Notes under the pieces: generated by a model | What the model was told of the DNA's origin: nothing | Database searches by the model: none | Seen by the model: only the letters and a program-made list of their open reading frames with translations | Position numbers and translations under genes: made by a program | Shown: positions 13,088 through 56,034 of the stretch, in pieces | How positions within the stretch are numbered: position 1 is the first letter of the stretch | Layout of the letters: each line of letters starts with the position of its first letter | Origin: Actinoplanes sp. L3-i22 | Lineage (GTDB): Bacteria > Actinomycetota > Actinomycetes > Mycobacteriales > Micromonosporaceae | Length of the DNA: 64,000 nucleotides | Assembly: GCF_019704555.1 (NCBI RefSeq) | Contig: NZ_AP024745.1 | Location: forward strand, 5,402,501 to 5,466,500 | Direction: 5' to 3'

Positions 13088-13915
13088 GCCCCGCGGGGCG
13101 CCGGTGCTGTCGCGCTCGACGATGTGCGCCTGTGGCGCCTCGTAGATCTCGCCGGAGCTGTCCCGCATCGCGTCGAGGACGGCGTCGGCGGCGATCTCGC
13201 CCACCCGGCTGACGTCGTGGCTCATCGCCGACAGCGCGGGCACGGCGAGCTGGCAGGGCACCGAGTCGTCCCAGGCGATCACCGACACCTCGCCGGGCAC
13301 GGCCAGCCCGTACGTCTTGATCGTCGCCAGTCCGCTGAGCGCCATCACGTCGTTGTCGTAGATGATCGCGGTCGGCCGGGAGGCGAGCAACTGGGCGGTG
13401 GCGGTCCGCCCGGACGCCTGGGAGTAGTCGCCCTCGACGCTGATCAGCGTGACGCCGTGCGCGGCGGCCTCGGTCCGCAGGCCACCGAACCGCAGCTGGG
13501 TGTGCGCCAGCGCGAGCGGCCCGCTGACGTGCCCGATCCGCCGGTGCCCGCGGCCGGTGAGGAAACGGATCGCCTCCCGGGCCGAGCCGGCGTCGTCGGT
13601 CCACACGGTGGGCAGGCCGTCGGCGGTCGACGGGTCGCCGATCACCACGGCCGGCAGGTTCAGCCGGCGGACCAGGGCGACGCGGTCGTCACCGGGGGAC
13701 AGGTCGACCATGATGACGCCGCCGACCCGTTCCTCGGCCGCCCACTGCCGGTAGGTGGCGCTCTCGGCCGCGTGGTCGGCGACGACCTTGACCAGCACCG
13801 AGACCCCGGCCGGGATCAGCACCCGGTCAAGGCCCTCGATGAACTCGTGGTAGTACGGCTCGTCGCCGAGCACCTGGGACGCCCGGGCCAGGATCAAGCC
13901 CACTCGACGGGTCAC
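12935..13915 (-). CDS. LacI-type sugar-sensor protein lacking the DNA-binding domain (copy 1)
   Basis: A 326-residue protein that is almost entirely a periplasmic-binding-protein-like effector domain of the LacI/GalR type. It starts VTRRVGLILARASQVLGDEPYYHEFIEGL, where the effector domain of a normal LacI protein begins, about 55 residues in. No helix-turn-helix is encoded. The GTG at 13915 overlaps the stop of the ROK gene by GTGA, so the two are translationally coupled. A close paralogue (28496-29323) ends at ARDSTN; this copy continues about 55 residues past the matching position, antisense to the SnoaL-like gene, which suggests stop-codon loss. It may modulate the ROK repressor or act as a cytosolic sugar sensor (inference). 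Confidence 0.8.
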   Translation of the reverse strand: MTRRVGLILARASQVLGDEPYYHEFIEGLDRVLIPAGVSVLVKVVADHAAESATYRQWAAEERVGGVIMVDLSPGDDRVALVRRLNLPAVVIGDPSTADGLPTVWTDDAGSAREAIRFLTGRGHRRIGHVSGPLALAHTQLRFGGLRTEAAAHGVTLISVEGDYSQASGRTATAQLLASRPTAIIYDNDVMALSGLATIKTYGLAVPGEVSVIAWDDSVPCQLAVPALSAMSHDVSRVGEIAADAVLDAMRDSSGEIYEAPQAHIVERDSTGAPRGSGGVGTELPQQATVVGAHPLLDQAAPVVDPEDVEQVEDDPPAVRRQRAHR

Positions 13916-14976
13916 AGACGGTTCCTTTCCACGGTGTGTCCGGGTGCGACCGACGCCTGGATGACCAGCGCCGCGGCCCCGATCCCGGCCGCGTCGCGGG
14001 GCTGGGCGGAGATCTCCACGGCGACGCCGTCCAGCGCGGAGCGCAGCCGGCGGGCGTAGATCGAGCCGGCCAGGGCCACGCCCGGGCCGGTGAGCACGAT
14101 GCGTTCCAGGTTGAGCAGGTTGACCATCGAGGTGACGGCCACGCCGAGGTAGCCGGCCGCCGTCTCGATCAGGGCGAAGGCCGCCGGGTCCCCGCCGATC
14201 GCGGCCCGGGCGATCGCGTCGTACCCGCGGAACGGCAGCCCGGCGGCGCGGGCCGCCTCGACGGTCGCGGTGGTCGAGGCGTACTGCTGCACGCAGCCCC
14301 GGTTGCCGCACGGGCAGGCCCGGCCGTCGTGGCCGATGGAGATGTGGCCGAACCGGTCGCCGCGGAACAGCGCGCCGCCGAAGACCAGCCCGGCGCCGAT
14401 GCTGTCGGACAGGTAGACACAGCCGAACGCCTGCTCGCGCGGCACCCGCCGGCTCCAGAACTCGCCGAGCGCGGCCGCCGCGGCGTCGTTGTCGACCAGG
14501 ACCGGGACGCCGATCAGCCCGGCCAGCTCGGGGGCGGCCGGCACCGGGCCGGGCGCCACGATCGCCAGGCCCTCGATCCGGTCGCGGGGCAGCGCCAGGG
14601 CGGCGGTGAAGTCGTGGAACAGGTCGGCGAAGGCGGGCCAGGGCCGGGGCACGACCTCGCGGCCGATCAGCCCGCCGGTCAGGTCGGCGGCCACGCAGGT
14701 CACCGTCTCCGGGCCGAGGTGGAACCCGATGCCGACCCGGTTGGCCGGGTTGATCGCGATGAGCCTGCGGGGCCGGCCCTGCGCCGAGTCCAGCGAGCCG
14801 ATCTCGTGGATGATGCCGTCGGCGATCAGCTCCCGGACGATGTTGGAGATCGACGGCTGGGTCAGGCCGGTCAGCCCGACCAGCTCGCCGCGGCTGATCC
14901 GGGCCGCCGAGCGGATCACGTCGACGACGAGGGCCCGGCTGCCGGGCCCGGCAGCCGGTGTTTCGCGACGCGCCAT
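13912..14976 (-). CDS. ROK-family transcriptional repressor (copy 1)
   Basis: A 354-residue ROK protein with an N-terminal winged HTH (about 12-60, RISRGELVGLTGLTQPSISNIV) and a C-terminal sugar-kinase-fold domain. The zinc motif CPCGNRGC is present. However, the ExGH metal-site motif reads DRFGH here, and the Glu after GCx is Gln (GCVQQY). Its paralogue at 29403-30581 keeps ELGH and GCVER. Ligand binding may therefore differ. It is divergent from the mannoside ABC operon and coupled to the HTH-less LacI-like gene. The likely role is repression of the mannan genes through the AT-rich box at 15018-15041, relieved by a mannoside (inference). Confidence 0.88.
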   Translation of the reverse strand: MARRETPAAGPGSRALVVDVIRSAARISRGELVGLTGLTQPSISNIVRELIADGIIHEIGSLDSAQGRPRRLIAINPANRVGIGFHLGPETVTCVAADLTGGLIGREVVPRPWPAFADLFHDFTAALALPRDRIEGLAIVAPGPVPAAPELAGLIGVPVLVDNDAAAAALGEFWSRRVPREQAFGCVYLSDSIGAGLVFGGALFRGDRFGHISIGHDGRACPCGNRGCVQQYASTTATVEAARAAGLPFRGYDAIARAAIGGDPAAFALIETAAGYLGVAVTSMVNLLNLERIVLTGPGVALAGSIYARRLRSALDGVAVEISAQPRDAAGIGAAALVIQASVAPGHTVERNRL

Positions 14977-29402: not shown

Positions 29403-30581
29403 ATGGCACGTCGGGAAACGCCCGCGGCGGGGCCGGGCAGTCGTGCCCTGATCGTGGACGTGATCCGCTCGGCGGTCTCGATCAGCCGGGTGGAGGTCGC
29501 CGAGCGCACCGGCCTCACCCAGCCGTCGATCTCGAACATCGTCCGGGACCTGATCGCCGACGGGATCGTGCACGAGACCGGCTCGACCGGCTCGGCCCGC
29601 GGCAAGCCCCGCCAGCTGCTGGCGATCACCCCGGCCACCCGGTTCGGCGTCGGCTTCCAGCTCGGGCCGGACACGGTGACCTGCGTGGCCATCGACCTCA
29701 CCGGTGGGGTGGTGGGCCGCGAGGTCGTCCCGCTCGGCGACTCCGACCTGGCCGACCAGCTCGCCGAGCGCTTCGACGACTTCCTGCTCGACCTGGACCT
29801 GCCCCGCGACCGGATCGAGGGCCTGGCGATCGTGGCGCCGGCCGCCCCGCCCAGCAGCGGGGACAGCCCGCCGGAGTGGGCCGCGGCCCGGCGCGGGCTG
29901 GCCGAGCGGCTGGGCATCCCGGTGCTGGTGGAGAACGACGCGGCGGCCGCGGCGCTCGGCGAGTTCTGGACCCGGCGGGTGTCGCGCGAGCAGGCGTTCG
30001 GCAGCGTCTACCTGTCCGCCGGGGTCGGCGCCGGCCTGGTCTTCGGCGGGGCGCTGTTCCGGGGCACCAGCTTCGACGCCGGCGAGCTCGGACATCTGTC
30101 GATCATGTACGACGGCCGGCCGTGCCCGTGCGGCAACCGCGGCTGCGTCGAGCGCTACGCCTCGATGACCGCGACCGTCGACGCGGCCCGCGAGGCCGGA
30201 CTGGCCGTCGACCACAAGAACGTGTTCAGCGCGTACGACGCGATCGCGCACGCCGCGGTCAGCGGCGACCCGGACGCGTTCGCCGTGGTCGATCAGGCGG
30301 CCGGCTACCTCAGCGTCGCGGTGACCTCGATGGTGAACCTGCTCGACCTGGGCCGGGTGGTGCTGACCGGGCCGGGCATGGCGATCGCCGGCTCGATCTA
30401 CGCCCGCCGGCTGCGGGCCCAACTGGCCGCGACCGCGCACGCCCGGTTCCGGCACGGGATCGTCGTCGAGCTGTCCGCCCAGCCGCGCGACGCGGCCGGC
30501 ATCGGCGCGGCGGCCCTGGTCGTGCAGGCGTCGATCGCCCCCGGCCACACCACCGGAGTCTCCGGCGCCGACGAGGACTGA
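29403..30581 (+). CDS. ROK-family transcriptional repressor (copy 2)
   Basis: A 392-residue paralogue of the ROK protein at 13912-14976, sharing its first ten residues (MARRETPAAG) and near-identical HTH text (TGLTQPSISNIVRDLIADGI). The effector domain keeps ELGH, CPCGNRGCVERYAS and ENDAAAAALGEF, so the sugar and zinc sites look intact, unlike copy 1. Extra residues lie near 142-160, 263-268 and 345-355. It probably senses a mannoside and acts on the mannanase promoter or both mannan promoters. Which copy binds the AT-rich box cannot be told from sequence. Confidence 0.88.
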   Translation: MARRETPAAGPGSRALIVDVIRSAVSISRVEVAERTGLTQPSISNIVRDLIADGIVHETGSTGSARGKPRQLLAITPATRFGVGFQLGPDTVTCVAIDLTGGVVGREVVPLGDSDLADQLAERFDDFLLDLDLPRDRIEGLAIVAPAAPPSSGDSPPEWAAARRGLAERLGIPVLVENDAAAAALGEFWTRRVSREQAFGSVYLSAGVGAGLVFGGALFRGTSFDAGELGHLSIMYDGRPCPCGNRGCVERYASMTATVDAAREAGLAVDHKNVFSAYDAIAHAAVSGDPDAFAVVDQAAGYLSVAVTSMVNLLDLGRVVLTGPGMAIAGSIYARRLRAQLAATAHARFRHGIVVELSAQPRDAAGIGAAALVVQASIAPGHTTGVSGADED

Positions 30582-44396: not shown

Positions 44397-44750
44397 CTAC
44401 AGGAACAGCATCGACTGGAAGAACGACGGGTCGGTGTAGGAGCCCTCGTCCTCGTGCCAGGCGGGTGGCCCGGCCGCCACGAAGTTGGCCCCCTCGTCGT
44501 CCAGGAAGTAGAGCGCGCCGCTGCCCCAGGTCCCGCCGAGCCCGCGCTCGACGGACTCGCGCCGCTCGTCGGAGGCCAGCGAGATGCTCAGCCCCTCGAA
44601 GACCGGCTGCAGCAGCATCCGGCGGACCCCGCCGAAGACCAGGTCGATCCGGGTCGGGTGGGCGTCGTCCCGGGTGCTGCGCAGCAGCAGGGTGGTGTGG
44701 CTCACCGAGTACCGCCAGACCTGGAAGGTGCGCTCCGAATGGAAGATCAA
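44397..44750 (-). CDS. Putative immunity protein for the adjacent polymorphic toxin
   Basis: A 117-residue soluble acidic protein of unrecognised family (FQVWRYSVSHTTLLLRSTRDD ... IDLVFGGVRRMLLQPVFEGLSISLASDERRESV ... FFQSMLFL). No ATG or GTG fits at the 5' end. TTG at 44750 overlaps the toxin stop by TTGA and follows GGGAG, so translation is coupled to the toxin. A small acidic gene directly downstream of a HINT-toxin gene is the usual place and type for an immunity protein. The role is inferred from context. Confidence 0.65.
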   Translation of the reverse strand: MIFHSERTFQVWRYSVSHTTLLLRSTRDDAHPTRIDLVFGGVRRMLLQPVFEGLSISLASDERRESVERGLGGTWGSGALYFLDDEGANFVAAGPPAWHEDEGSYTDPSFFQSMLFL

Positions 44751-47700
44751 GAGTTCATCAGCTCCCGCCAGTTCGGTTCCGGCATGTCCGCCGGGCTCAG
44801 CGGCTTGCCGTTGACGTACCACTTGATGCTGTCCCAATCCCGGAACCCCATGCGTACATAAAAACCGATCTGCCCCATCTCCCAGTCCGTCGCGCCGTAC
44901 ACGCCGCTCTTCGCCTTCTTGTAGGCGTTGAGGAACTTGGCGATCGGCGTCGCGCCGTCCATGTCGTCGATCGCGACGTGGATGGTCGAGCCCGGGCTCT
45001 TCAGCGCCTCGTTGACCTTCTTCTGCCAGCCCGCCAGACCACTCTCCGGGTCGATCGCCTTCAGATCGGCGCCGTTGTAGGTGAGGGCGTCAGCGGTGTC
45101 CGGACTCTTGCGCAGCGTATCGGCGAGCGCCTCGGAGTGCCGGTTGATGCCCAGCACGACGTTCTTGTCGCAGTTGTGCACCAGGATCGGCGTGTGGCCG
45201 GCCAGCACGTAATAGGTGTGCAGGGCGGCGACGGTGAGGTTGTACATCACCCGGTTGCCGGTGTACGTCCGGACCGCGCCCACCCGCGGCACGACCACCG
45301 TGCTGCGCAGCGCGTCACCCGGCCGCAGATCCGCCGCCTCGGTCCAGGACCGGGTGGTCTCGTCCCAGAACGGGTGCTCCTGGGTGGTGCGCAGCACCGC
45401 ACCCGAGGCGATCCGCACGTCGGCCAGGTCGGTGTCCCGGTTGCGGTGCACCTGGGTGACCCGCTCGGGCTTCGTCACCCCCAGCTCCGGGTCGGTGGCC
45501 AGCACCCGGTCGCCGGCCCGGATCGCGGCGATCGGCTTGCTGCCGCCGCCGGCCAGCAGCACCCGGGTGTCGGCGGCGAAGCTGTTGCGCGCGAGGCAGG
45601 ACTTGATCAGGTCCTCGAGGCCCTTGACGATCGGCGTGTTCCGCAGGTCCTTGAGAGCCTGCTCGACGGCGTCGATGCCCTTGACCACGATGGACCTGGC
45701 CATCGCGGCGATCTCCTCCGCGCTGAGCGTCAGCTTGATGGTCAGCGACTCGGCCAGGCTGAGCAGCCGGGCCGCGTTGAGCGCGCCGAGCTTGGTGACC
45801 GCGTTGGAGAGCAGCTCGCCGCCGTACTTGGCGGCCCCGGCCAGCAGGTCCTTCAGCCCGGCCTTGGCGATGTCCTTGGAGATGCCCTTCTCGAGCGCCT
45901 TGAAGATCGCCCCGAACCCGTCGGTCCCGATGATCGTGACCACGTCGACGATCGTCATCCCCAGGGCCCGCTGCCAGTTCTCGCCCCACTCGTTCCAGTG
46001 CAGCAGCTGCTTGGGATCCTTGACCAGCTTGGTCACCCCGTCCTGCAGCAGCTTGCAGGCCTTGTCCGGCTTCGGCCAGAAGGTGACGTCCGGAACCGTG
46101 TACTCGTCGGTCGCCGGGTCCAGGCCGATGAACGTGCCGACCGTGCAGTCACTGACGTACCAGAGCCCCTCGACCATCCCCAGCAGGCTGTCCTTGGCAC
46201 CCTTGACGATGTCGGCGCCCCACGGCATCCAGTGGTCGATCGCCTGGTCGCTCTTCTCCTGCAACCACCGCATCCACGCGGTCTCGGCCGCGGCCTGCTC
46301 GACGTCGTAGGCCTTCCACGCGGTCTCCATCAGCGTCTTGGCCAGCCCGCTCATGCCGCGGGCCATGTCCCAGACGCTGTTCGAGATCGACGTGATCGTG
46401 CCGCTCATCGTCTCGGTGTCGCCGGCCAGCAGGTTCGCGTTGTCCGAGGCGAGCTTGGCCTTGTCGGCGTAGCCGCGCGCGGCGTTCTTCGCCTGCCGCG
46501 CCACCCCGGCGTTCTGGCCGGCCTGCTGACTCTCCGCCTTGGCCGCCTGCGCGTAGGAGTTCGCCTGGGCCTGGGACCGTCGCGCGTCCTCGGCGGCGGT
46601 GGCCGCGGCCGCCGCCTCGTCACTTGCGTCCTGCGCCGCGGTCACCGCGACCTTGCTGGCCGCGACCGCCCGCTTCGCCGCCTCGGCCGCCTTCTGCGCC
46701 GCGAGGTACGCCGGTTTCACCTGCTCCTGCGCCTGCGCCGCCATCTCCGCGGCATGCACCGCGGCGGCGGCCGCGTCGTCGGCGTGCTGCTGCGCGGCGA
46801 CACTCTGTGTCGCGCCGATCGCCATCGCGTTGTTGGCCAGGTCGATGGCCATCGCGGCGTCGTTGTCGGTCTCGGCGTACACGCCGGCGACGTCCAGGGC
46901 CCGGGCCGCCGGGTCGGCGATGGCCTCCGCCGAGACCCGGGCGTCCAGGGCCGCGCGGCCCGCGATCCGGGTCTCGAACGCGGCGATCGCCGCCTGCCGG
47001 GTCGCGTCCTCGTACGCCTGCCGGGTCAGGTCGGCGTCCGCACCGGCCTGGGCGGCCCGCTGCACCGCCTCGCGGGCCGCGTCGACCGCCGCCGTGGCGT
47101 CGTTGTTGGCCTTGACGGCGTCGTCGATGGCCCGCGACGCCGCGGACGCCGCGGTCTCGGCGTCCTGGGTCGCCAGGCGCGCCTCGTTCGCCGCCCCACG
47201 GGCCGCGGCCGCCGCGGCCGCCGCAGCCGCGGCGGCCTGCCGGTAGTCATCGGCCGCCGCGTCGGCCGCCGCCGACGAGGCGGTGGCGTCGCCCTTGGCC
47301 GCCGTCGCCGCCGACCGGGCCGCGGTGGCGTCGTTCCGGGCCCGGGTGGCGTCGGCCGCGAGCTGCTGCATCTCGGCGGTGCCCGGGCAGCCGGTGCCGC
47401 TCGGGTTGTCCGGGTACTTGCAGGCCAGCTCGGCGGCGAGCTTGCGGGCCTCGGCCGCCTCGGCCTCCAGCTCCTTGGAGTGCGCGCCGTCGGCGGACTT
47501 CTTCGCCCGGTCGATCAGGTCCTTGGTCTGCTTGCCGACCTGCTCGAAATGCTGACCCGCGACCAGCGACCGGTCGTACGCCTGCTTCGCGTCGTCGTGC
47601 TTGGTGACCGCGACGTTCTGCTGGTTGATCGCCCGGACGGCCGCGTTGTAGGCCTGCTGCTCGTGGGCGATCGCGTTCGAGGCCGCCTGCTGGGCGATCT

Positions 47701-49183
47701 GTCGCTGCTGAACCGCGGTCTCGTAGTAGTCGCGGGCCTTGTTCACCCGGATCCGGGCGTCCGCTGCCGCCGCCTCGGCCCGCAACCGCTGGGCGTGCGC
47801 GTCGGCCGCCGCGGCCTGCGCGGCCGCCGCCAGCTGCTCGGCGCGCAGGGCCAGCTTCTCGGCCGCCGCCTGCTCGCGCTCGGCGGCCTGCCGGTACTTG
47901 ACCGCGTTCGCCGCGTCGACGGTGGCACTGTGGTCGGCGTCCAGCGCCTTGGCCGCCGCCTCGGTCGCCTCGGCCGCGTGGCACGCGGTCTCGGCCGCCT
48001 GCTTGCCGGCCGTCGCGGCGTCGCCCTGGGCCTGCAGCACCTCGTTCCAGTCGATGCCGTGCGTCAACCCGGTGTCGGTCAGCGTCTGCGCCGCCGTCGC
48101 CGCGACCCCGGCCTGCGCGACCACCTGGTCGGCGTTCCGGGCGGTGGTGGCCGACTCGGCGCACGCGTCCGAGCGCAGCTTCGTCAGGTCGGCGGTGTGG
48201 GTCGCGCCGCCGGCCTTGCGGATCGGGACGTCACTGGCGTAGATCGCGTCGGCCTGCTTGGCGTACCGGTTGACCAGGCCCATCGAGTTGGCCGCCACGG
48301 TCAGCGACTGGGTCGCGCTGATGCTCGCCGTGACGATCTGCCGCTGCGCGGTGGCCGCCCGGGTCGCCTTCTGCGCCAGCGTGGCCAGGTCGCTGACCGC
48401 GGTCGCCCGGGCCGTGAGGGCGGCCTCGATCTCCCGCTGCGCGTCGGTGTCCAGCTGGGCCGCCGCGAGGTAGCCGTGGTTGTAGAACTCGGCGATCACC
48501 TCCGGGTCCTCGCTGTCCAGCGCCAGCTGGCCCTGCGACTGCACCTCGTAGCCGCCGGACGCGACCAGTTGGCCGACCCGGGCCTGGATCAGCTGGGCCT
48601 GCTGCTGGGCGGTCAGGACGTCCTGCGCGTCCGCGGCGTCGGCGGCGGCCTTGCCGATCGCGATGAAGTCGGCGATCTTCGTGGCGTTGTTGGTGGCCAG
48701 CGCCGCGGCGGCCTTCTGCCGCACGATCGGGGTGCCGGTGTCGGCCCAGTGCTGGACCAGCGCCCGGTCCTCGACGGTCTTGATCTTCTTGATCTCGTCG
48801 GCGGCCTTGCGGTAGACCGGCAGACCCTTGTCCAGGAAGTCCCGGATCGTCACCGGGTCGTTGGTGTCCAGCGCGGCCTGGGCCGCCGCCCGGACCTCCG
48901 GGTCCTCGTCGTAGTCGGCCAGATCCTGACACAGCATCCGGTCCAGATCCGCGTCGTCGATCGGGCCGTCCGTGTCCGGCACCGCGGTGACCGGGCCGGC
49001 GAGCTGCTCCAGCAGCTGCTGGACAGTCAGCGGGGCCGGGGCGGCCTGCGGCACCCGCTCCCGCGGCGCCGCGTAGGCACTGCTCGGCGCGGCGATCGCC
49101 ACCGCCAGGCCGCCGGCGATCGCCGCCAGCGTCCGTCGTCGCCACCGTCCGCCGGTGAAACGGGCATGGAGCTTGAACGTCAT
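44747..49183 (-). CDS. Secreted polymorphic toxin: ALF repeats, Ala-rich stalk, HINT domain, C-terminal toxin domain
   Basis: A 1,478-residue exported protein. The signal peptide covers about residues 1-40 (RRRTLAAIAGGLAVAIAAPSSAYA). ALF repeats follow (about 80-290, e.g. VRAAAQAALDTNDPVTIRDFLDKG), then a very Ala-rich coiled-coil stalk (about 290-960) and a Trp-containing hydrophobic region (about 960-1190). A pretoxin HINT domain (1196-1338) begins at Cys1196 in CLARNSFAADTRVLL and ends VHNC, and should self-cleave. The C-terminal toxin module (1339-1478, VLGINRHSEALADTL ... WREL) is not a family I recognise. ATG 49183 is preferred to GTG 49210 for its GGGGG ribosome-binding site and signal-peptide fit. 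The stop overlaps the immunity gene. Confidence 0.88.
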   Translation of the reverse strand: MTFKLHARFTGGRWRRRTLAAIAGGLAVAIAAPSSAYAAPRERVPQAAPAPLTVQQLLEQLAGPVTAVPDTDGPIDDADLDRMLCQDLADYDEDPEVRAAAQAALDTNDPVTIRDFLDKGLPVYRKAADEIKKIKTVEDRALVQHWADTGTPIVRQKAAAALATNNATKIADFIAIGKAAADAADAQDVLTAQQQAQLIQARVGQLVASGGYEVQSQGQLALDSEDPEVIAEFYNHGYLAAAQLDTDAQREIEAALTARATAVSDLATLAQKATRAATAQRQIVTASISATQSLTVAANSMGLVNRYAKQADAIYASDVPIRKAGGATHTADLTKLRSDACAESATTARNADQVVAQAGVAATAAQTLTDTGLTHGIDWNEVLQAQGDAATAGKQAAETACHAAEATEAAAKALDADHSATVDAANAVKYRQAAEREQAAAEKLALRAEQLAAAAQAAAADAHAQRLRAEAAAADARIRVNKARDYYETAVQQRQIAQQAASNAIAHEQQAYNAAVRAINQQNVAVTKHDDAKQAYDRSLVAGQHFEQVGKQTKDLIDRAKKSADGAHSKELEAEAAEARKLAAELACKYPDNPSGTGCPGTAEMQQLAADATRARNDATAARSAATAAKGDATASSAAADAAADDYRQAAAAAAAAAAAARGAANEARLATQDAETAASAASRAIDDAVKANNDATAAVDAAREAVQRAAQAGADADLTRQAYEDATRQAAIAAFETRIAGRAALDARVSAEAIADPAARALDVAGVYAETDNDAAMAIDLANNAMAIGATQSVAAQQHADDAAAAAVHAAEMAAQAQEQVKPAYLAAQKAAEAAKRAVAASKVAVTAAQDASDEAAAAATAAEDARRSQAQANSYAQAAKAESQQAGQNAGVARQAKNAARGYADKAKLASDNANLLAGDTETMSGTITSISNSVWDMARGMSGLAKTLMETAWKAYDVEQAAAETAWMRWLQEKSDQAIDHWMPWGADIVKGAKDSLLGMVEGLWYVSDCTVGTFIGLDPATDEYTVPDVTFWPKPDKACKLLQDGVTKLVKDPKQLLHWNEWGENWQRALGMTIVDVVTIIGTDGFGAIFKALEKGISKDIAKAGLKDLLAGAAKYGGELLSNAVTKLGALNAARLLSLAESLTIKLTLSAEEIAAMARSIVVKGIDAVEQALKDLRNTPIVKGLEDLIKSCLARNSFAADTRVLLAGGGSKPIAAIRAGDRVLATDPELGVTKPERVTQVHRNRDTDLADVRIASGAVLRTTQEHPFWDETTRSWTEAADLRPGDALRSTVVVPRVGAVRTYTGNRVMYNLTVAALHTYYVLAGHTPILVHNCDKNVVLGINRHSEALADTLRKSPDTADALTYNGADLKAIDPESGLAGWQKKVNEALKSPGSTIHVAIDDMDGATPIAKFLNAYKKAKSGVYGATDWEMGQIGFYVRMGFRDWDSIKWYVNGKPLSPADMPEPNWRELMNS

Positions 49184-49362
49184 GACACACCCCCGTGATG
49201 AGTCCGCCACCGCACGACACTGATCAATGTGGCCGGTTAGTCATACCAGAGACGAACTCATCGGCGCCGCCCGATGGATTCGCCTCCGGCCGGCCGGCAG
49301 CGTCGAGTGCGACCAGGCGGTTGCCGGGGAACGCTGCGGACCCGGCCGGAACTCGGGCATCC

Positions 49363-49902
49363 TCACCCGGGGGAGCTGGCAGGGCTGCTCCATGGAAAAG
49401 CTGACAGGATGAACGGCACGGCTGGGTCCACGTCCGGCGTCAGGCGGATACAAACCTTGAACTGGCTGACTTCGCGGTACCGAGCCCGCCCCGGGCCCGG
49501 TGTGCCGCTGCCGTCGTAGCCCCGACCGACCGGGCGGTGAGCGTCCGCGACGCCCTCGTGACGGCGCCGATCCGCCAGATTGATGCGAATCATCGTCCAG
49601 TGCCGACGCACGTACGTGTTTACCGCGAAGTCCAGGGTCGGTAGATCCATCCACTGGTAGGAACGTGTCACCCTGTGCCGCCACGGTGGATCCCCGTGGA
49701 TCCGACCCTCGATCGTCTTCATACCGGCTGTGCGTCGCAAGGGGATGTCAGGTCCGTGCCGATCGAGCGTGTGCGCCCCGCGGCTGCGGTGCTCGATGTC
49801 ATTGCGGATGATGTCGAATTCCGGCACTTCGTCGCTGAGCGGACCGTATCGGGGAATTGCCGCGAAGCCGGTCAGTGGGGTGATCGAAAACTGTCCCGGC
49901 AT
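49363..49902 (-). CDS. Hypothetical protein
   Basis: A 179-residue protein from ATG 49902, preceded by GGGAGCG at 8 nt. Composition is protein-like (SITPLTGFAAIPRYGPL, WMDLPTLDFAVNTYVRRHWTMIRINL, VSQFKVCIRLTPDVDPAVPF) and not the Arg/Pro-rich pattern of antisense frames here. No signal peptide, membrane segment or known motif was found. GC bias is weaker than in neighbours, consistent with accessory DNA between the toxin and the ATPase operon. No function is assigned. Confidence 0.5.
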   Translation of the reverse strand: MPGQFSITPLTGFAAIPRYGPLSDEVPEFDIIRNDIEHRSRGAHTLDRHGPDIPLRRTAGMKTIEGRIHGDPPWRHRVTRSYQWMDLPTLDFAVNTYVRRHWTMIRINLADRRRHEGVADAHRPVGRGYDGSGTPGPGRARYREVSQFKVCIRLTPDVDPAVPFILSAFPWSSPASSPG

Positions 49903-50172
49903 GAGGCGCTCCCGTCATCTGAATTGATCACCAGCGGTTGTCCGGCGGTGATCGATGAGCAGCGGTGATCCGGGGATAGATCCGGATTTGCTGTTCGACA
50001 GGAGCCACTTGAGCAGCGAATATTCAGGTTTTCGAGCTAATGGGAGGGTTCGGGAAGTGACGGGACGGCGCCTCTTGATCAAGTCGATGAGTGTCCAGCC
50101 CATAGCGCAGCCGTCGAGGAATTCGTAAGCTGTCCCGGAACGTCCAGCGTCGGCTGCGGGAGGTAGATAACA
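49903..50172. other. Lower-GC non-coding gap with inverted repeat
   Basis: These 270 bp are clearly less GC-rich than the surroundings. GATCACC (49926-49932) and GGTGATC (49947-49953) form a perfect 7-bp inverted repeat with 14-bp spacer, and a third GGTGATC lies at 49964-49970. No convincing gene is present; short minus-strand frames lack start signals. The gap probably holds the divergent promoters of 49363-49902 and 50173-52308. Confidence 0.5.
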
Positions 50173-52308
50173 CTGACCAGCGCGCCGACATTTGATCTTT
50201 CCAAAATCGGATCATGGCAGGAGTTCGCGAAATTCCTGACCTTGAAAAAAGACCGCTCCGGACTTTCCTTCAGTGATTTCGAGCGGCAGACCCGGCATGC
50301 TTCCGGGGATAAGCGTCCGCTGAGCAGGTCCACCTTGAGCGCGGTGTTGCAGGGGCAGCGCACGCCGCAGAAACCGGTGCTGGAGAGCTTCCTCGACGCA
50401 CTGAACCCGTCAGTCGGCGAACGCGTCGAGATCATGGAAACCTGGGAGCGGCTGACCGATGAGTCACGCGAGTGGCAGTCCGGCCTGGTCCGGGTCGCCG
50501 AGGTGTCGCCGCGCGAACTCGGCGTCAACGCCGGCATCAGGCCGCTGCCCGGCTACGTTCCCCGCCACTTCGATCCGGATCTTCGGCAACTGATCGAGGA
50601 CGGCACTCGGCAGGGCTGTTTCGTTGTCCTCATCGGCGGCTCGTCGACCGGCAAGACCCGCTCATTGTACGAAGCCGTTCGCGCCAAGGCCGAGCAATGG
50701 TGGCTGGCTCAGCCGGCGGACACTCGCGACATCTATCGCCTGCTCGACGAGCCGGATCGCCGGGCCGTCATCTGGCTCGACGAACTCGCTCGCTTCTTCG
50801 ACCAGACACCCGCGCTCACCAAGCCACAGGTGGCACGTCTGGTCCGAGCCGGCCACATCGTCGTGGGCACGCTTTGGTTCGAGGACTACAAGGCCCGGAT
50901 GGATTCGCGTGTCACCGGCGCGGCCGAGCGGGAGCTGCTCGTCTTCGCGGAACCGATCGATGTCCCACCCCGCTTCCGGCCAGCGGAACAGCTGTGTGCC
51001 CGTCAGCTCGCCACTACCGACAGCGCAATACGGGCTGCGCTGGACGCATCCGAGGACGGTCTGACCCAGGTGCTCGCCGCCGGTCCTGAGTTGATGCGCC
51101 GGTGGGAACATGCGCCGCCGTACGCCCGGGCCGCGATCACGGCGGCAGCGGACGCACGTCGCCTCGGCATTCTCTCGCCGTTACCGCCGGAGTTGCTCCT
51201 CGAAGCCATGTCCGGATACCTGAGCAGGCCGGAGCAGGCCGCATCAAGGGAGAGCTGGCTGAAGGAGGTGGATGCCTACGCCGCACAGCGGATCAACGAG
51301 ACCTCAATCGCGGCGCTGCCCCAGGAAGCCGGCGATCGGCCGGGAAGTCCGCCCGGATATCGGGCCGCCGATTTCCTGGCCCAGCAGCTGCGCATTCAGC
51401 GCCGAGTGCAGTGCCCACCGGAAAGCCTCTGGACGGCGCTCATCGATCGTCTCGACAGCAAGGACGAAGTTCGGCGTCTCGGTGACGCGGCCGCGGCACG
51501 GATGCGGTACCGCATCCAGGCAAGGGCGCTGCACCGGCTGGCGACACTCGGCGACGGCAATGCCTGTGTCGAGTTGGCCACCCTGCTGGTCCGCCGTGAT
51601 GACCTGCAAGCGGCAGAGTTGGTGCTGGTAGACGGCGTGCGGGGACAGCGGGAGACCAGAACGGCGACGACTCTGGTCGAAGTGATGACCCTGCGCGAGC
51701 GGTCGGACCCGCTACGCACCTCCGACCCGACCGCGCAGAAACTTCTGTGGGACCTGCTCTATGACCGCGGTGAGAGCCTCGACCTTAGGGCGAGGGCTGA
51801 GCGGGGCGACCTCACCGCCGGCGACGATCTCGCCAACCTGCTCGCCGAGCGGGGCGAACTGGCGGAGTTGCGGGAGCTCGCGGATGCCGGGCACCGCCTG
51901 GCGCCGAACCTGCTGACGGAGCTGCTGGCCACCCTGCGGCGCACTACTGAGCTGGCCGCCCGTGCGGAGCGGGGTGATCGGGTGGCGGCAACCAGGCTCG
52001 ACCAGATTACCGGCGCCGGGGCCGCTGACTCCGTCCCCGGGATCGCCGAACTCCGCGACGAGCTGACCACCGGCGGAACGGCCGCAGCCGACCAGCTGAC
52101 CTCGCTGCTGTTCGAGCTGGGCGACGAGACCGAGCTGCGCGCCGAGGTGGATGCCGGCACCCCACGCGCCGTCGACCGGTTGCTCGCCTTGCTCATGGCC
52201 GGCTGCGGTGACGACGCGACGGCTGCCGAGAAGGTTCGACGGCTGCGCGCCTTCGGTATGCACCCCGATGGAACCCTGGCTCTGACAGAAGGAAAAGACC
52301 ATGGTTGA
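50173..52308 (+). CDS. HTH-containing P-loop NTPase with C-terminal helical repeats (operon gene A)
   Basis: A 711-residue protein if translation starts at CTG 50173, which follows GGGAGGT (50158-50164) at 8 nt. The reading TSAPTFDLSKIGSWQEFAKFL is the normal beginning of an actinobacterial HTH domain, and no ATG or GTG lies between the in-frame stop at 50164 and TTG 50242. The domains are HTH-like (1-90, GLSFSDFERQT...LSRSTLSAVLQGQ), P-loop GGSSTGKT (155-162), Walker B VIWLDE (Asp203), and a C-terminal solenoid of short Ala/Leu/Glu repeats (about 430-700, AERGDLTAGDDLANLLAERGELAELRELADAG). This STAND-like layout suits a sensor/switch NTPase. The next gene overlaps by 8 bp. Confidence 0.8.
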   Translation: MTSAPTFDLSKIGSWQEFAKFLTLKKDRSGLSFSDFERQTRHASGDKRPLSRSTLSAVLQGQRTPQKPVLESFLDALNPSVGERVEIMETWERLTDESREWQSGLVRVAEVSPRELGVNAGIRPLPGYVPRHFDPDLRQLIEDGTRQGCFVVLIGGSSTGKTRSLYEAVRAKAEQWWLAQPADTRDIYRLLDEPDRRAVIWLDELARFFDQTPALTKPQVARLVRAGHIVVGTLWFEDYKARMDSRVTGAAERELLVFAEPIDVPPRFRPAEQLCARQLATTDSAIRAALDASEDGLTQVLAAGPELMRRWEHAPPYARAAITAAADARRLGILSPLPPELLLEAMSGYLSRPEQAASRESWLKEVDAYAAQRINETSIAALPQEAGDRPGSPPGYRAADFLAQQLRIQRRVQCPPESLWTALIDRLDSKDEVRRLGDAAAARMRYRIQARALHRLATLGDGNACVELATLLVRRDDLQAAELVLVDGVRGQRETRTATTLVEVMTLRERSDPLRTSDPTAQKLLWDLLYDRGESLDLRARAERGDLTAGDDLANLLAERGELAELRELADAGHRLAPNLLTELLATLRRTTELAARAERGDRVAATRLDQITGAGAADSVPGIAELRDELTTGGTAAADQLTSLLFELGDETELRAEVDAGTPRAVDRLLALLMAGCGDDATAAEKVRRLRAFGMHPDGTLALTEGKDHG

Positions 52309-52933
52309 CGATGACTTGACGGCTTCAGACGGCGCGATTCTCCTGGTACTCATGGTTGAGGCCAGAGAGGTGCTCAACACTGAATTGGCCGAACTCTACG
52401 GGTTGGATGTGCGCAAGGGGCCGCGCGAGAAACTCGAGAAATTGAAGTACATCGCCTCGAGGAAAAGCGGCCGTACGAACGCGCTGCTCCTGACCGACGA
52501 GGGCTGGCTCCGTGTGCGCGAGGACCTTGACTTCACCCTGCGGGGTGCGGGGGCCCTGGGCAGTGCGCTCAAGGCGTTGCATGCCGCAATTCGGAATCGT
52601 GTTCTGACCCGGGCGGGCTGCGCGACGCTCGGAGAGCTTTTCTCGTCGACCGATCTTCGTGCTCCGGCCAAACAGGATCTTCGTTCGCGCATCGTCAGCG
52701 CCTACTACGCCCTTGCCGACGAGCCGAAGGACTGGGTCAGCCTGCGCCGGCTGCGGCCTTTCTTCGCCGACGTGGCCAGGAAAGACCTGGATGAAGCCCT
52801 GCGCCGACTCATCGAGGAAGACAACGTCAGTCTTGCGCCCGAGTCGAGTGGCAGGCTGGTGACCGAGGCGGACACCGAGGCGGCTCTGCGCGTGGGTGGG
52901 CAGGACAATCACCTGCTGGCGATCGGTGTGTGA
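52301..52933 (+). CDS. Small protein of unknown function (operon gene B)
   Basis: A 210-residue soluble protein, not recognised. Residues 8-75 (ASDGAILLVLMVEAREVLNTELAELYGLDVRKGPREKLEKLKYIASRKSGRTNALLLTDEGWLRV) read like a winged helix with its wing at RTNALLLTDEGW. Residues 75-150 are helical. Residues 155-200 (VSLRRLRPFFADVARKDLDEALRRLIEEDNVSLAPES) look like a second winged helix. It may be the DNA- or protein-binding adaptor of the operon. It overlaps gene A by 8 bp and gene C by 1 bp (TGATG), so the three are translationally coupled and probably form a complex. Confidence 0.75.
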   Translation: MVDDDLTASDGAILLVLMVEAREVLNTELAELYGLDVRKGPREKLEKLKYIASRKSGRTNALLLTDEGWLRVREDLDFTLRGAGALGSALKALHAAIRNRVLTRAGCATLGELFSSTDLRAPAKQDLRSRIVSAYYALADEPKDWVSLRRLRPFFADVARKDLDEALRRLIEEDNVSLAPESSGRLVTEADTEAALRVGGQDNHLLAIGV

Positions 52934-55900
52934 TGGAGGACGAGGAACGCAAGGCGCTCTCCGCGCTGCGCTTCGACTGGGCGCCGGTGCCCGATGACCT
53001 GTGGCGGCCGCAGCCCTTTCACGTCGAAGGCCTGCACGTTCCCGTCCTGCGTGAAGTGGTGGCCGGTATCGGCGAGGCGGCGGCCAGCCCGGCCGGTAGC
53101 CCCATCGGCCTGGTGATCCAGGGACAGGGTGGATCCGGCAAGACCCACCTGCTCGGCTCGGTGCGGCAGGAGGTGCACGAGCGGGGCGGCTATTTCTTCC
53201 TGGTGAGCATGCTCAACGCGAAGACGTTCTGGGAGAGCGTGCTGGAGGCGATTCTGGACGGCCTCTCCCGGCCGGTGCCGGGCAGCCGCCAGAGCCAGCT
53301 CGGCCTGCTCCTGCGCAGCCTGTCGGCGATGGTGGCGGTGCCCCGCGCGGCGCGGCGGGCCGTCATGGGGGAGACGGAGCTGACCCGCGGCGCACTCGAC
53401 GAATTCATCAAAGGCCTTGCCCAGCACGACCGGCAGGTGGCACGCAGCAGTCAAGAGACCGCGCGGGCGCTGGCCCTGAGCGCCTCGATGGATATCGGTC
53501 ATCAGTACATCGCGGAGACCTACTTCTCCTCGGGTGAGGAAACCGAAACCGGCGAACGCGACGCCTGGGGACTACGCCGAGCCGCACGCCCGGCGCAGCA
53601 GATCGTGCAGGACCTCTCCCGATTGCTGGCGCTGACCGGACCATCGGTCATCGCCATCGACCAGATTGACACGCTGGTCGCATCGCTGGACATCGAGGCC
53701 GATCCGGCTGGTAGGTCCGCGGGCCTACGGCCGGAAGACGCTCGGATGCTTGCTGTGCTCGCCGACGGGCTCATGTCCCTTCGGGAGCTGACCCGCCGCA
53801 CGCTCACCGTGATCACCTGTCTGCCCGGCACCTGGAAGAACCTTACCGGCGTCGCTGTCGCCACCGTGTCCGACCGGTTCCGTCAGACTGCTCCGCTCAA
53901 GCGGATCAGGGACAGGGCGCTCGCTCAGAAGATCATCGAGAAGCGGTTCGTCACCCGATTCGCCGAGATTGGATTCCAGCCGCTGTTCGACTCGTGGCCG
54001 GTCCTGCCAGAGGCGTTCGCCCATGCCGGGCCGTTCACTCCCCGTGAGTTGCTGATCAGGATCGACAATCACATTCGCACCTGTATCGCCACCGACCGCG
54101 TCGATCTGCTGGCGACCATCGGTGACCCGGCGCCGACCGGTCCACGGCCAGAGCCCTCGGCACCGCCTCCGGTCGCCGTCTCCGCCGGCGAGATGGCGCG
54201 GTTCGACGAACGGTTCGCCGAGCTCAAGCTGGCCGCGGACGACATCACCCCGCTCGAATACGGCTCCGAGGACGACGCGGTGCCCGGTCTGCTCGCCGCC
54301 GGGCTGACGGCCTGGATCTTGGAACGTGGCGAGGCCGGTACTGGGTTCAGTGTGGACCCGCCACCGGGCGCTCGCCCGGCACTGCACGCGCGGCTGCGGC
54401 TGACTCTCAACCCGGATACCGATGACCAGGTCCACTGGTCTTTCCGCGCGGTGAGCGCTGACCACCATTTCAACGGTGCGCTCTCTCGGCTGAAGAAGGC
54501 GACGATCGCCGCGGCTGCCGAGACCACGACCGGCAAACGCAACCTCTACATGCTCCGCAACGCGGAGTGGTCACAGGGCGGGACCACGCGCGACGAGCTC
54601 ACGAAGGTGACCGCGACGCTCGAACTCGACCCTGAGGACCTGAGCATCCTGTCCGCCCTTCAGGTCATGCTCGGTGAGGCCCCGCGGGAAATGCACGGCT
54701 GGCTCATCGAAAGACGGCCGACGCGCAACCTGAAATTCCTGGAGGAGGCGCTCGCCGACGTCGACAGATGGGTGCCCGGCGAGCACACCGCCCACGAGGA
54801 CGACATGCCAAGCCTGACAATCGGCTACGACCACGGGGACGGCACTCCGGTGACCATCCCGGTCGAGGCGTTGCGCAAGCACGCCGCGATCTTTGCCGGC
54901 TCGGGGTCCGGAAAAACCGTCCTCATCAGGCGCATCGTCGAGGAGTGCGCCCTGTACGGGGTGTCCGCGATCGTGCTCGACCCCAACAACGACCTGGCTC
55001 GGCTCGGCGACAGCTGGCCCGAGCCGCCGACAGAATGGCGGGCCGGGGACCGGGAAAAGGCCGCTTACTACCTCGCGAATACCGATGTCGTGGTCTGGAC
55101 GCCGCGGCGGTCGGCGGGCCGGCCGCTGAGCCTTCAGCCGCTGCCGGACTTTCCGAGTGTCCTCGATGACCAGGACGAGTTCCACGAGGCGGTGGAGGCG
55201 GCGGTCGCGGCACTCGTGCCACGGGCGCTGGTCGCGGGCCGGGCTGCCAAGGCACACACCGGGCGCGCCGTGCTGCGCAAGGCCATCGAGCACTACGGCA
55301 GACGGGGAGGCACCCGCCTACAAGGTCTCATCGACACCCTGGCCGATCTTCCCGACGGCACCATCGACATAGACGGCGCCGACAAGATCGCCGCAGGCCT
55401 GGCGCAGACGCTGACCGCTGAGATGGTGAACGATCCGCTCTTCGGAGGCGATGGCACCCCTCTGGATCCCGGGGTGTTGCTGACTCCGGCCGCCGGCAAA
55501 CGGGCTCGTGTCTCGGTGATCAGCATGGTGGGCCTGCCGTCGGATGCTGTTCGCCAGACATTCGTGAACCAGTTGCAGATGGCGCTGTTCTCCTGGATCA
55601 AGCAACACCCCGCCGGTGACCGGCCGCTGCTCGGCCTGCTCGTCATGGACGAGGCCCAGACCCTGGCACCGGTCAGCCCGATGACCGCATGCACGCAGAG
55701 TACGCTGATCCTGGCCGCCCAGGCGCGCAAGTACGGCCTGGGACTGCTCTTCGCGACCCAGGCCCCGAAGAGCCTGCACAATCGGATCCCGGGCAACTGC
55801 ACGACGCAGCTCTACGGCCTGCTGAACAGCCCGGTGCAGATCGAGGCGGTCCGTGAGATGGCGAAGGCCAAGGGCGGTGACGTCCCCGACATCTCTCGTC

Positions 55901-56034
55901 TCGGGGCTGGCGAATTCTATCTGGCCGCCGAGGGCACGGCGCCGCGCAAGATCAAAACCCCGCTCTCGCTGACCCACCACCCCCGGAGTCCGCTGACGAC
56001 CGAGGAGGTCCTGACGCGGGCACGCAAGGACTGA
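52933..56034 (+). CDS. Double-ATPase protein with HerA/FtsK-like C-terminal half (operon gene C)
   Basis: A 1,033-residue protein with two nucleotide-binding modules. Module 1 (about 30-400) has P-loop GQGGSGKT (64-71) and Walker B VIAIDQID (Asp243), in the style of BrxC/PglY or Orc-like AAA ATPases. Residues 405-620 are an accessory region. Module 2 (about 625-1030) has P-loop GSGSGKT (656-662) in AIFAGSGSGKTVLIRRIVEE, DPNNDLARL, Walker B LLVMDEAQ (Asp906-Glu907) and the sensor-like GLLFATQAPKSL. That set is characteristic of HerA-type DNA translocases. No nuclease motif was found. The joint presence suggests loading plus DNA pumping. The start is ATG 52933, with GTG 52930 as an alternative. 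Confidence 0.85.
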   Translation: MEDEERKALSALRFDWAPVPDDLWRPQPFHVEGLHVPVLREVVAGIGEAAASPAGSPIGLVIQGQGGSGKTHLLGSVRQEVHERGGYFFLVSMLNAKTFWESVLEAILDGLSRPVPGSRQSQLGLLLRSLSAMVAVPRAARRAVMGETELTRGALDEFIKGLAQHDRQVARSSQETARALALSASMDIGHQYIAETYFSSGEETETGERDAWGLRRAARPAQQIVQDLSRLLALTGPSVIAIDQIDTLVASLDIEADPAGRSAGLRPEDARMLAVLADGLMSLRELTRRTLTVITCLPGTWKNLTGVAVATVSDRFRQTAPLKRIRDRALAQKIIEKRFVTRFAEIGFQPLFDSWPVLPEAFAHAGPFTPRELLIRIDNHIRTCIATDRVDLLATIGDPAPTGPRPEPSAPPPVAVSAGEMARFDERFAELKLAADDITPLEYGSEDDAVPGLLAAGLTAWILERGEAGTGFSVDPPPGARPALHARLRLTLNPDTDDQVHWSFRAVSADHHFNGALSRLKKATIAAAAETTTGKRNLYMLRNAEWSQGGTTRDELTKVTATLELDPEDLSILSALQVMLGEAPREMHGWLIERRPTRNLKFLEEALADVDRWVPGEHTAHEDDMPSLTIGYDHGDGTPVTIPVEALRKHAAIFAGSGSGKTVLIRRIVEECALYGVSAIVLDPNNDLARLGDSWPEPPTEWRAGDREKAAYYLANTDVVVWTPRRSAGRPLSLQPLPDFPSVLDDQDEFHEAVEAAVAALVPRALVAGRAAKAHTGRAVLRKAIEHYGRRGGTRLQGLIDTLADLPDGTIDIDGADKIAAGLAQTLTAEMVNDPLFGGDGTPLDPGVLLTPAAGKRARVSVISMVGLPSDAVRQTFVNQLQMALFSWIKQHPAGDRPLLGLLVMDEAQTLAPVSPMTACTQSTLILAAQARKYGLGLLFATQAPKSLHNRIPGNCTTQLYGLLNSPVQIEAVREMAKAKGGDVPDISRLGAGEFYLAAEGTAPRKIKTPLSLTHHPRSPLTTEEVLTRARKD

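Follow-up and report, generated by a model that had tools for sequence, protein, structure and literature searches.

A three-gene operon (genes A, B and C; positions 50173 to 56034, plus strand) lies in a 64,000-nucleotide stretch of the Actinoplanes sp. L3-i22 genome, hereafter called the window; the genome itself is a single contig of 12.0 Mb. Gene A encodes a P-loop NTPase, gene B a winged-helix protein and gene C an AAA ATPase joined to a HerA/FtsK-like translocase. Comparison with related loci leads us to favour, with slightly better than even confidence, a reading in which the operon, lacking a nuclease and including an NTPase, would be a variant of the Orc/Cdc6-type HerA/FtsK capture class of anti-invader systems. 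The lack of a nuclease belongs to the version found in the window: 54 of the 102 distinct loci have a nuclease gene (N). In front of the B-C pair, A takes the place of, or accompanies, this PD-(D/E)XK-type nuclease. The operon family is common in Micromonosporaceae, the family of the window, with C homologues (E ≤1e-20) in 212 of 354 genomes, as compared to 6 of 396 in a phylum-wide sample (both figures include the genome of the window). It would therefore offer a natural experiment, where the same DNA pump occurs with a nuclease, without a nuclease and with swapped partners, and it lets one ask what the HerA engine does alone in anti-invader defence.

A conserved B-C core with alternative partners

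The survey comprises 103 loci, namely 100 stretches, mostly the best-scoring of a longer list, together with those of Actinoplanes sandaracinus, Rhodopseudomonas and the window. One locus (L039) repeats another (L001) and is left out of the distinct-locus counts, which gives 102. B stands beside C in all 102 loci, and A stands beside B-C in 27. In front of B, N was found in 48 loci, A in 21 and A followed by N in 6, and 27 loci have neither. One N locus reads N C B, solely since the longest open reading frame (ORF) of C begins upstream of B. N-B-C loci are also found outside the family, in Nonomuraea, Tsukamurella, Methylobacterium and Rhodopseudomonas.

The N proteins, taken as longest ORFs, are 292-485 residues long, with the exception of a 96-residue piece in L132. 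A C-terminal DUF559 domain was detected in the four proteins tested (E 2.7e-14 to 1.6e-10), N resembles the solved "Endonuclease-Like Protein" 3hrl (E 1.5e-12), and residues D264, E275, D277 and H281 are invariant in 22 aligned rows. We take the DUF559 fold of N to be PD-(D/E)XK. In agreement with the first-pass annotation of the window, which had seen no nuclease partner, Pfam and PADLOC recognise none in or beside the operon. Moreover, neither a search with one N protein nor one with the N profile found an N homologue in the window genome.

Among the 27 loci with neither partner, 16 carry a divergent gene of 1,319-1,429 residues with WD40 repeats (Pfam, one member scanned; for example positions 12959-17068 of L059). 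This gene stands in the place of A or N, and all such loci fall within a single clade. The other loci of this group have varied upstream genes, one of them (L122) being at a contig end. By eye, the WD40-repeat gene also has trypsin-like and NACHT-like parts. A small gene lies between the WD40 gene and B in eight loci of this type, and three Trypco1 matches occur among the scanned flank proteins.

A second sample, overlapping the genomes of the first survey, was scanned by profile in 121 genomes of the family, with two second fragments of N matches and A matches below 240 bits dropped. Once merged, the C fragments amount to 103 loci spread over 76 genomes; 24 of these genomes have two or three loci each (a few of these may be one gene split over two contigs). 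Out of 51 strong N matches, 47 lie on the same strand as C and 623-972 bp upstream of it, which is room for B; the other four are found at a contig start (one, in G503) and in the fragmented genome G534 (three), two with an internal stop. All 15 A matches above 850 bits adjoin C, while this is the case for none of the 19 weak N matches and for none of the 23 A matches of 240-600 bits compared. Since N and the close homologues of A adjoin C, B-C together with either N or A makes up a genuine gene system.

The three genes and their products

As described in the first-pass annotation, the three genes of the window are real, co-directional and overlapping. A and B overlap by 8 bp, and B and C by 1 bp or 4 bp, depending on whether C starts at ATG 52933 or GTG 52930. 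All three are open and uninterrupted, and A and C were each found once in the window genome. The operon recurs in other genomes; its gene arrangement is thus more than chance.

Gene A (50173 to 52308) encodes 711 residues from a CTG codon or 688 residues from TTG 50242, the latter being the first in-frame ATG, GTG or TTG. A GGGAGG motif (50158 to 50163, plus strand), possibly the ribosome-binding site of A, precedes CTG 50173 by 9 nt. The same GGGAGG-CTG arrangement is present in L001. In A. sandaracinus, the CTG and the upstream stop are both found again, and the in-frame peptide that follows the CTG is nearly identical. This conservation of the reading frame makes CTG 50173 a plausible start of A. 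The residues of the Walker A P-loop (GxSSxGKTR) and of Walker B (WLDE) do not vary across 24 aligned proteins. A Pfam scan of A gave nothing significant (nSTAND3, the STAND domain tested, E 0.18), nor did a PDB profile search (designed TPR, E 0.13). Thus, from the initial description of A as a helix-turn-helix (HTH) protein with a P-loop NTPase and a solenoid, the P-loop and Walker B motifs are established, and the two other parts are read by eye, with an N-terminus that looks HTH-like and a C-terminus that looks repeat-rich, and from the database names of distant relatives ("helix-turn-helix", "tetratricopeptide repeat"). Judged by sequence similarity, A is part of a wider NTPase family reaching beyond B-C loci, A-type NTPases (E ≤1e-15) being present on 46 plasmid records from actinobacteria, of which 40 are from Streptomyces.

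Gene B (52301 to 52933, plus strand) encodes 210 residues in which a Pfam scan found no significant family. Its AlphaFold model is of the winged-helix type (mean pLDDT 69.7), with a first domain at about residues 8-75 (block means of 79-92 over residues 11-70) and, in our own reading of the model, a second winged-helix-like domain at about residues 127-208 (pLDDT about 51-74). Foldseek returned RosR/MarR/ArsR/TubR-like winged-helix regulators with a probability of up to 1.00 and a best E of 0.011, and no match at E ≤0.001. Model and fold search therefore agree on the winged-helix-like nature of B proposed at first, clearly for the first domain and at lower confidence for the second. B is fast-evolving, the mean column identity in the alignment of its relatives being 38%. 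In a PDB profile search with B, the best 60 of 194 matches were calmodulins or calmodulin fusions and were judged spurious.

Gene C (52930 to 56034, plus strand) matches the Pfam families DUF87/HerA (E 6.9e-10) and AAA_22 (E 4.6e-9) above their cut-offs, AAA_16 below it (E 6.5e-7) and, by profile, the solved HerA 4d2i (E 4.2e-10). These matches uphold the view that an ATPase is joined to a HerA/FtsK-like translocase in one protein. The AAA domain spans about residues 53-261 and the HerA/FtsK domain about residues 629-1004. Across 26 aligned proteins, both ATPases show no variation in their Walker A and Walker B residues. The middle region between the two domains gave no hhalign match to the nuclease domain of N or to B. 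An AlphaFold model of C computed from three sequences has a pLDDT of 32 and is unusable as a structure. Some of the solved HerA proteins matched by C are defence proteins. The closest relative of C, with 85% identity, is that of A. sandaracinus.

Evolution of the operon

A tree of 102 C proteins was built with a quick method (LG+G4); some long branches were flagged and the root is not known. On this tree, the four partner labels require 11 changes, as compared to a mean of 46.8 after shuffling, and the A-B-C rows require three. A single clade of the 21 A-B-C rows is rejected (p-AU 3.2e-6, for a group named after the tree had been seen). One clade of 47 rows contains 21 loci with A, 20 with N, 6 with both and 0 with neither; a clade of 18 rows consists solely of A-B-C loci. 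The window and A. sandaracinus fall in a set of 23 rows where 20 have N, 2 have A and 1 has both. In a tree of A, the same pair joins L041, an A-N-B-C locus, with a support of 100/99. Because the A-B-C loci do not form one clade and the A of the window groups with an A-N-B-C locus, the window operon probably comes from a nuclease-bearing operon. In the simplest history, the ancestor of the clade would have been A-N-B-C, with later loss of A or N, and the line of the window would probably have lost N. We infer here a loss of N rather than a gain.

Such a history raises the question of whether A-B-C is a decaying remnant, where what is left after the loss of the nuclease drifts. Among C proteins, those closest to the window-sandaracinus pair come from loci with N, either by itself or together with A; the nearest kin of A outside the pair comes from an A-N-B-C locus; and N, absent from the window genome, was probably lost. 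However, the dN/dS ratios between the window and A. sandaracinus are 0.18 for A, 0.21 for B and 0.17 for C, those of two further A-B-C pairs range from 0.15 to 0.29, and no internal stop was found in the A-B-C pairs compared. These values speak against decay after the loss of N, and indicate that purifying selection acts on A, B and C even in the absence of the nuclease. Moreover, the Walker residues of A and C are invariant, there is a clade made of A-B-C loci solely, and every row of the 47-row clade keeps A or N. Decay is thus very unlikely in our opinion.

Genomic context

The window and A. sandaracinus share a DNA block of 6.7 kb (49384 to 56031; 6,677 aligned columns, 82% identity). It stops close to the end of a gene here called X on one side and at the stop codon of C on the other. 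Beyond this block, the window has a polymorphic toxin and polyketide synthase (PKS) genes, and A. sandaracinus a GGDEF protein and a DUF4253 protein. Gene X (49363 to 49902, minus strand) is a divergent ORF of 179 residues with a dN/dS of 0.31 between the window and A. sandaracinus. It adjoins A-B-C in these two loci and N-B-C in four (L082, L084, L133 and L135); in L039 it occupies positions 7652-8395. Pfam and PADLOC found no match for X, whose sequence is reminiscent of RNase-A-type toxin domains.

The toxin gene that adjoins the operon (44747-49210, minus strand, 1,487 residues) was correctly recognised as such in the first-pass annotation. It matches PT-HINT in Pfam (E 9.4e-16) and, weakly, Ntox27 (E 1.3e-4; 22.4 bits, below the cut-off of 24). 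The low-GC edges noted at the same time are also present, with 0.634 at 50-51 kb and 0.649 at 56-57 kb. The GC content at third codon positions (GC3) is 0.76-0.84 in A, B and C; the toxin gene reaches 0.96 and the first PKS gene 0.92. A methylmalonyl-CoA mutase gene at 40 kb is common to five genomes (77-89%). In four of these, over about 20 kb each, the mutase alone matches window genes from 34 kb on; in the fifth, the contig ends after about 5 kb. Toxin, operon and PKS are all absent from these four stretches, which thus differ from the window by more than the operon. In L174, the first two PKS genes (76% and 67%) are present, and the operon and the toxin are absent in 20 kb. As side observations, a downstream gene on the opposite strand, nucleoside-phosphorylase-like by eye, is common to seven A-B-C loci (for example positions 11169-12401 of L088), and two predicted proteins of the window (13912-14976 and 29403-30581) have nearly identical N-termini (MARRETPAAGPGSRAL...).

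Conservation of the flanks was evaluated in 418 C pairs of at least 65% identity, flank sharing being defined as more than 500 bp of common DNA in 3 kb. Flanks were shared in 23 of 269 cases downstream and 36 of 263 upstream for pairs of 65-75% identity, in 16 of 102 and 21 of 104 for pairs of 75-85%, and in 18 of 38 and 15 of 38 for pairs above 85%; for the WD40 type, the upstream figure takes in the WD40 partner gene itself. Plasmid records of C relatives were rejected as a proof of mobility: one is an 11.9-Mb replicon, another carries ribosomal-protein genes, and the Methylobacterium record alone is typed mobilizable among the plasmid records with C. The Tsukamurella locus L141 is on a record named "plasmid 22" (NZ_LR134464.1), which may be chromosomal.

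The proteins surrounding the relatives were compared to a control. At E ≤1e-8, PADLOC recognised 80 families among 145 proteins flanking 39 loci (14 near-duplicate pairs included), and 26 families in the control, 145 of 157 proteins from random stretches in 19 of these genomes. When the best 25 of the 80 flank families and the best 25 of the 26 control families are considered, E 1e-30 is reached by 21 and 1, respectively. Among the matches listed, the flank families include CRISPR type I-U, Csx1, LmuC, NsnB and HEC and PDC candidates; the listed control matches are mostly to mad, BrxH and DpdF models and are taken to be ordinary ABC transporters and helicases. C relatives were found neither in 50,697 phage records nor, by six peptide patterns, in viral contigs.

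These data bear on the possibility that the operon encodes not a defence system but a machine that segregates, transfers or repairs DNA, perhaps to the benefit of a mobile element or of the chromosome. HerA/FtsK and winged-helix proteins do serve segregation, and the partition protein TubR is among the fold matches of B. Distant relatives of A occur on the plasmid records mentioned above, and no defence gene is recognised beside the window operon. It should be considered, however, that presence is patchy and sites are variable, that more than half of the distinct loci have a nuclease partner, and that the neighbours of the relatives belong to defence families. Phage and viral records gave no C relative, relaxases and integrases having had no dedicated search. 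Taken together, we consider a role of this kind unlikely.

Possible mechanism and the role of gene A

Within an anti-invader system, B would bind DNA and load C, and C may assemble as a hexamer pumping double-stranded invader DNA. A could act as a switch driven by NTP, detecting the invader and licensing C; alternatively, it could be the output of the machine. In the nuclease-bearing relatives, N would cut the captured DNA. In the version of the window, translocation by C and its consumption of ATP may themselves produce the block, in that the invader would be stalled in its replication, segregation or packaging; otherwise, a host nuclease may be recruited. These two routes appear the most likely for the window.

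The main rival reading, somewhat unlikely but more serious than a segregation machine, is that A is the effector. A would kill or arrest the cell in an NTP-dependent manner (abortive infection), B-C would be the DNA sensor, and N and A would be interchangeable effectors. Indeed, A and N occupy the same slot and are never both absent in the 47-row clade, and the divergent WD40-repeat gene is found instead in 16 other loci. However, Pfam and PADLOC scans recognised no catalytic effector domain in A, and A and N coexist in six loci, as a sensor plus an effector would. We keep the nuclease-less capture variant as our preferred reading. A broader proposition, which we put forward tentatively, is that HerA immune machines may work without a nuclease of their own. 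A, as a regulator or effector driven by NTP, would have replaced the nuclease more than once, the AAA-HerA protein and A would together block invaders or arrest the cell, and N, A and the WD40 protein would be exchangeable inputs or outputs of the B-C core.

Comparison with known systems

HerA-Sir2 is reportedly a two-component system in which a HerA ATPase is combined with an effector. Likewise, DUF4297-HerA is described as a two-component system where a HerA ATPase works with an effector (PMC11291478). The window operon shares HerA with both, but DUF4297 and Sir2 matches are absent from A, B and C (Pfam, PADLOC); identity with either system was thus rejected. BREX-related capture (BRC) likewise combines HerA, an Orc/Cdc6 ATPase, an active STAND NTPase and a multi-HTH protein (PMC12839542). 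However, it has PglZ and DUF6079, neither of which was found in the window operon. BREX and BRC were rejected, no PglZ, PglX or DUF6079 being present in A, B, C or eight other Pfam-scanned window proteins. DndFGH contains a HerA/FtsK protein (DndH), a multi-wHTH protein (DndG; wHTH, winged HTH) and a nuclease, but A, B and C match no Dnd model of PADLOC. The best PADLOC match of C is mad8 (PDLC04140, E 1.8e-22). Since this model also picks up 5 of the 145 proteins from random regions (E down to 2.1e-15), it is unspecific. Membership of MADS was rejected, as mad1-mad7 are lacking in A, B, C and nine neighbours. Overall, B and C co-occur, and no BREX, Dnd, Ssp or conjugation set with its usual partners was seen. 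Among the matches listed in a search of literature titles and abstracts on HerA and DUF559, none describes this gene combination.

The first-pass annotation had held that no named system has this composition. A similar domain set was, however, described in 2024 (PMC10853773), so this part of its interpretation is not supported, while the co-occurrence of B and C and the lack of a nuclease beside the operon stand. That study defines an Orc/Cdc6-type "HerA/FtsK capture" class of anti-invader systems, made of an Orc/Cdc6 ATPase, an inactive restriction endonuclease (REase), HerA/FtsK and a wHTH, as single or multiple polypeptides in mobile neighbourhoods. These neighbourhoods "usually" encode an active REase, and a subset adds a fast-evolving multi-wHTH gene. 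HerA is proposed to intercept invader DNA during segregation, transfer or packaging (PMC10853773). DUF559 is absent from the main text of the article.

Several points weigh against the preferred reading. The active nuclease usual in the class is absent here, and both the assignment of the AAA domain of C to the Orc/Cdc6 clade and the presence of an inactive REase insert are at most putative. Several PADLOC families can match one protein, and the number of defence genes near the relatives is below the count of 80 families. Strong defence-family matches are listed for the flanks of the relatives, but not for the window's own neighbours: nine other window proteins (36.7-64 kb) gave no PADLOC match better than E 6e-4, so that the window itself is no defence island. 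The flank-sharing figures stand without a control gene. Finally, the N-B-C genes of L141 are inside a ribosomal-protein gene cluster, and L142 lies among genes that look metabolic by eye.

Nevertheless, the window operon shares with the capture class the AAA ATPase, HerA/FtsK and the wHTH, and the N-B-C relatives share an endonuclease in addition. The window operon differs in being without an active nuclease, in having the AAA and HerA domains fused in one chain, and in the alternative partner, the NTPase A here and a WD40-repeat gene in part of the relatives. In outline, N-B-C would thus fit the capture class, and A-B-C would represent a nuclease-less variant of it rather than a full member.

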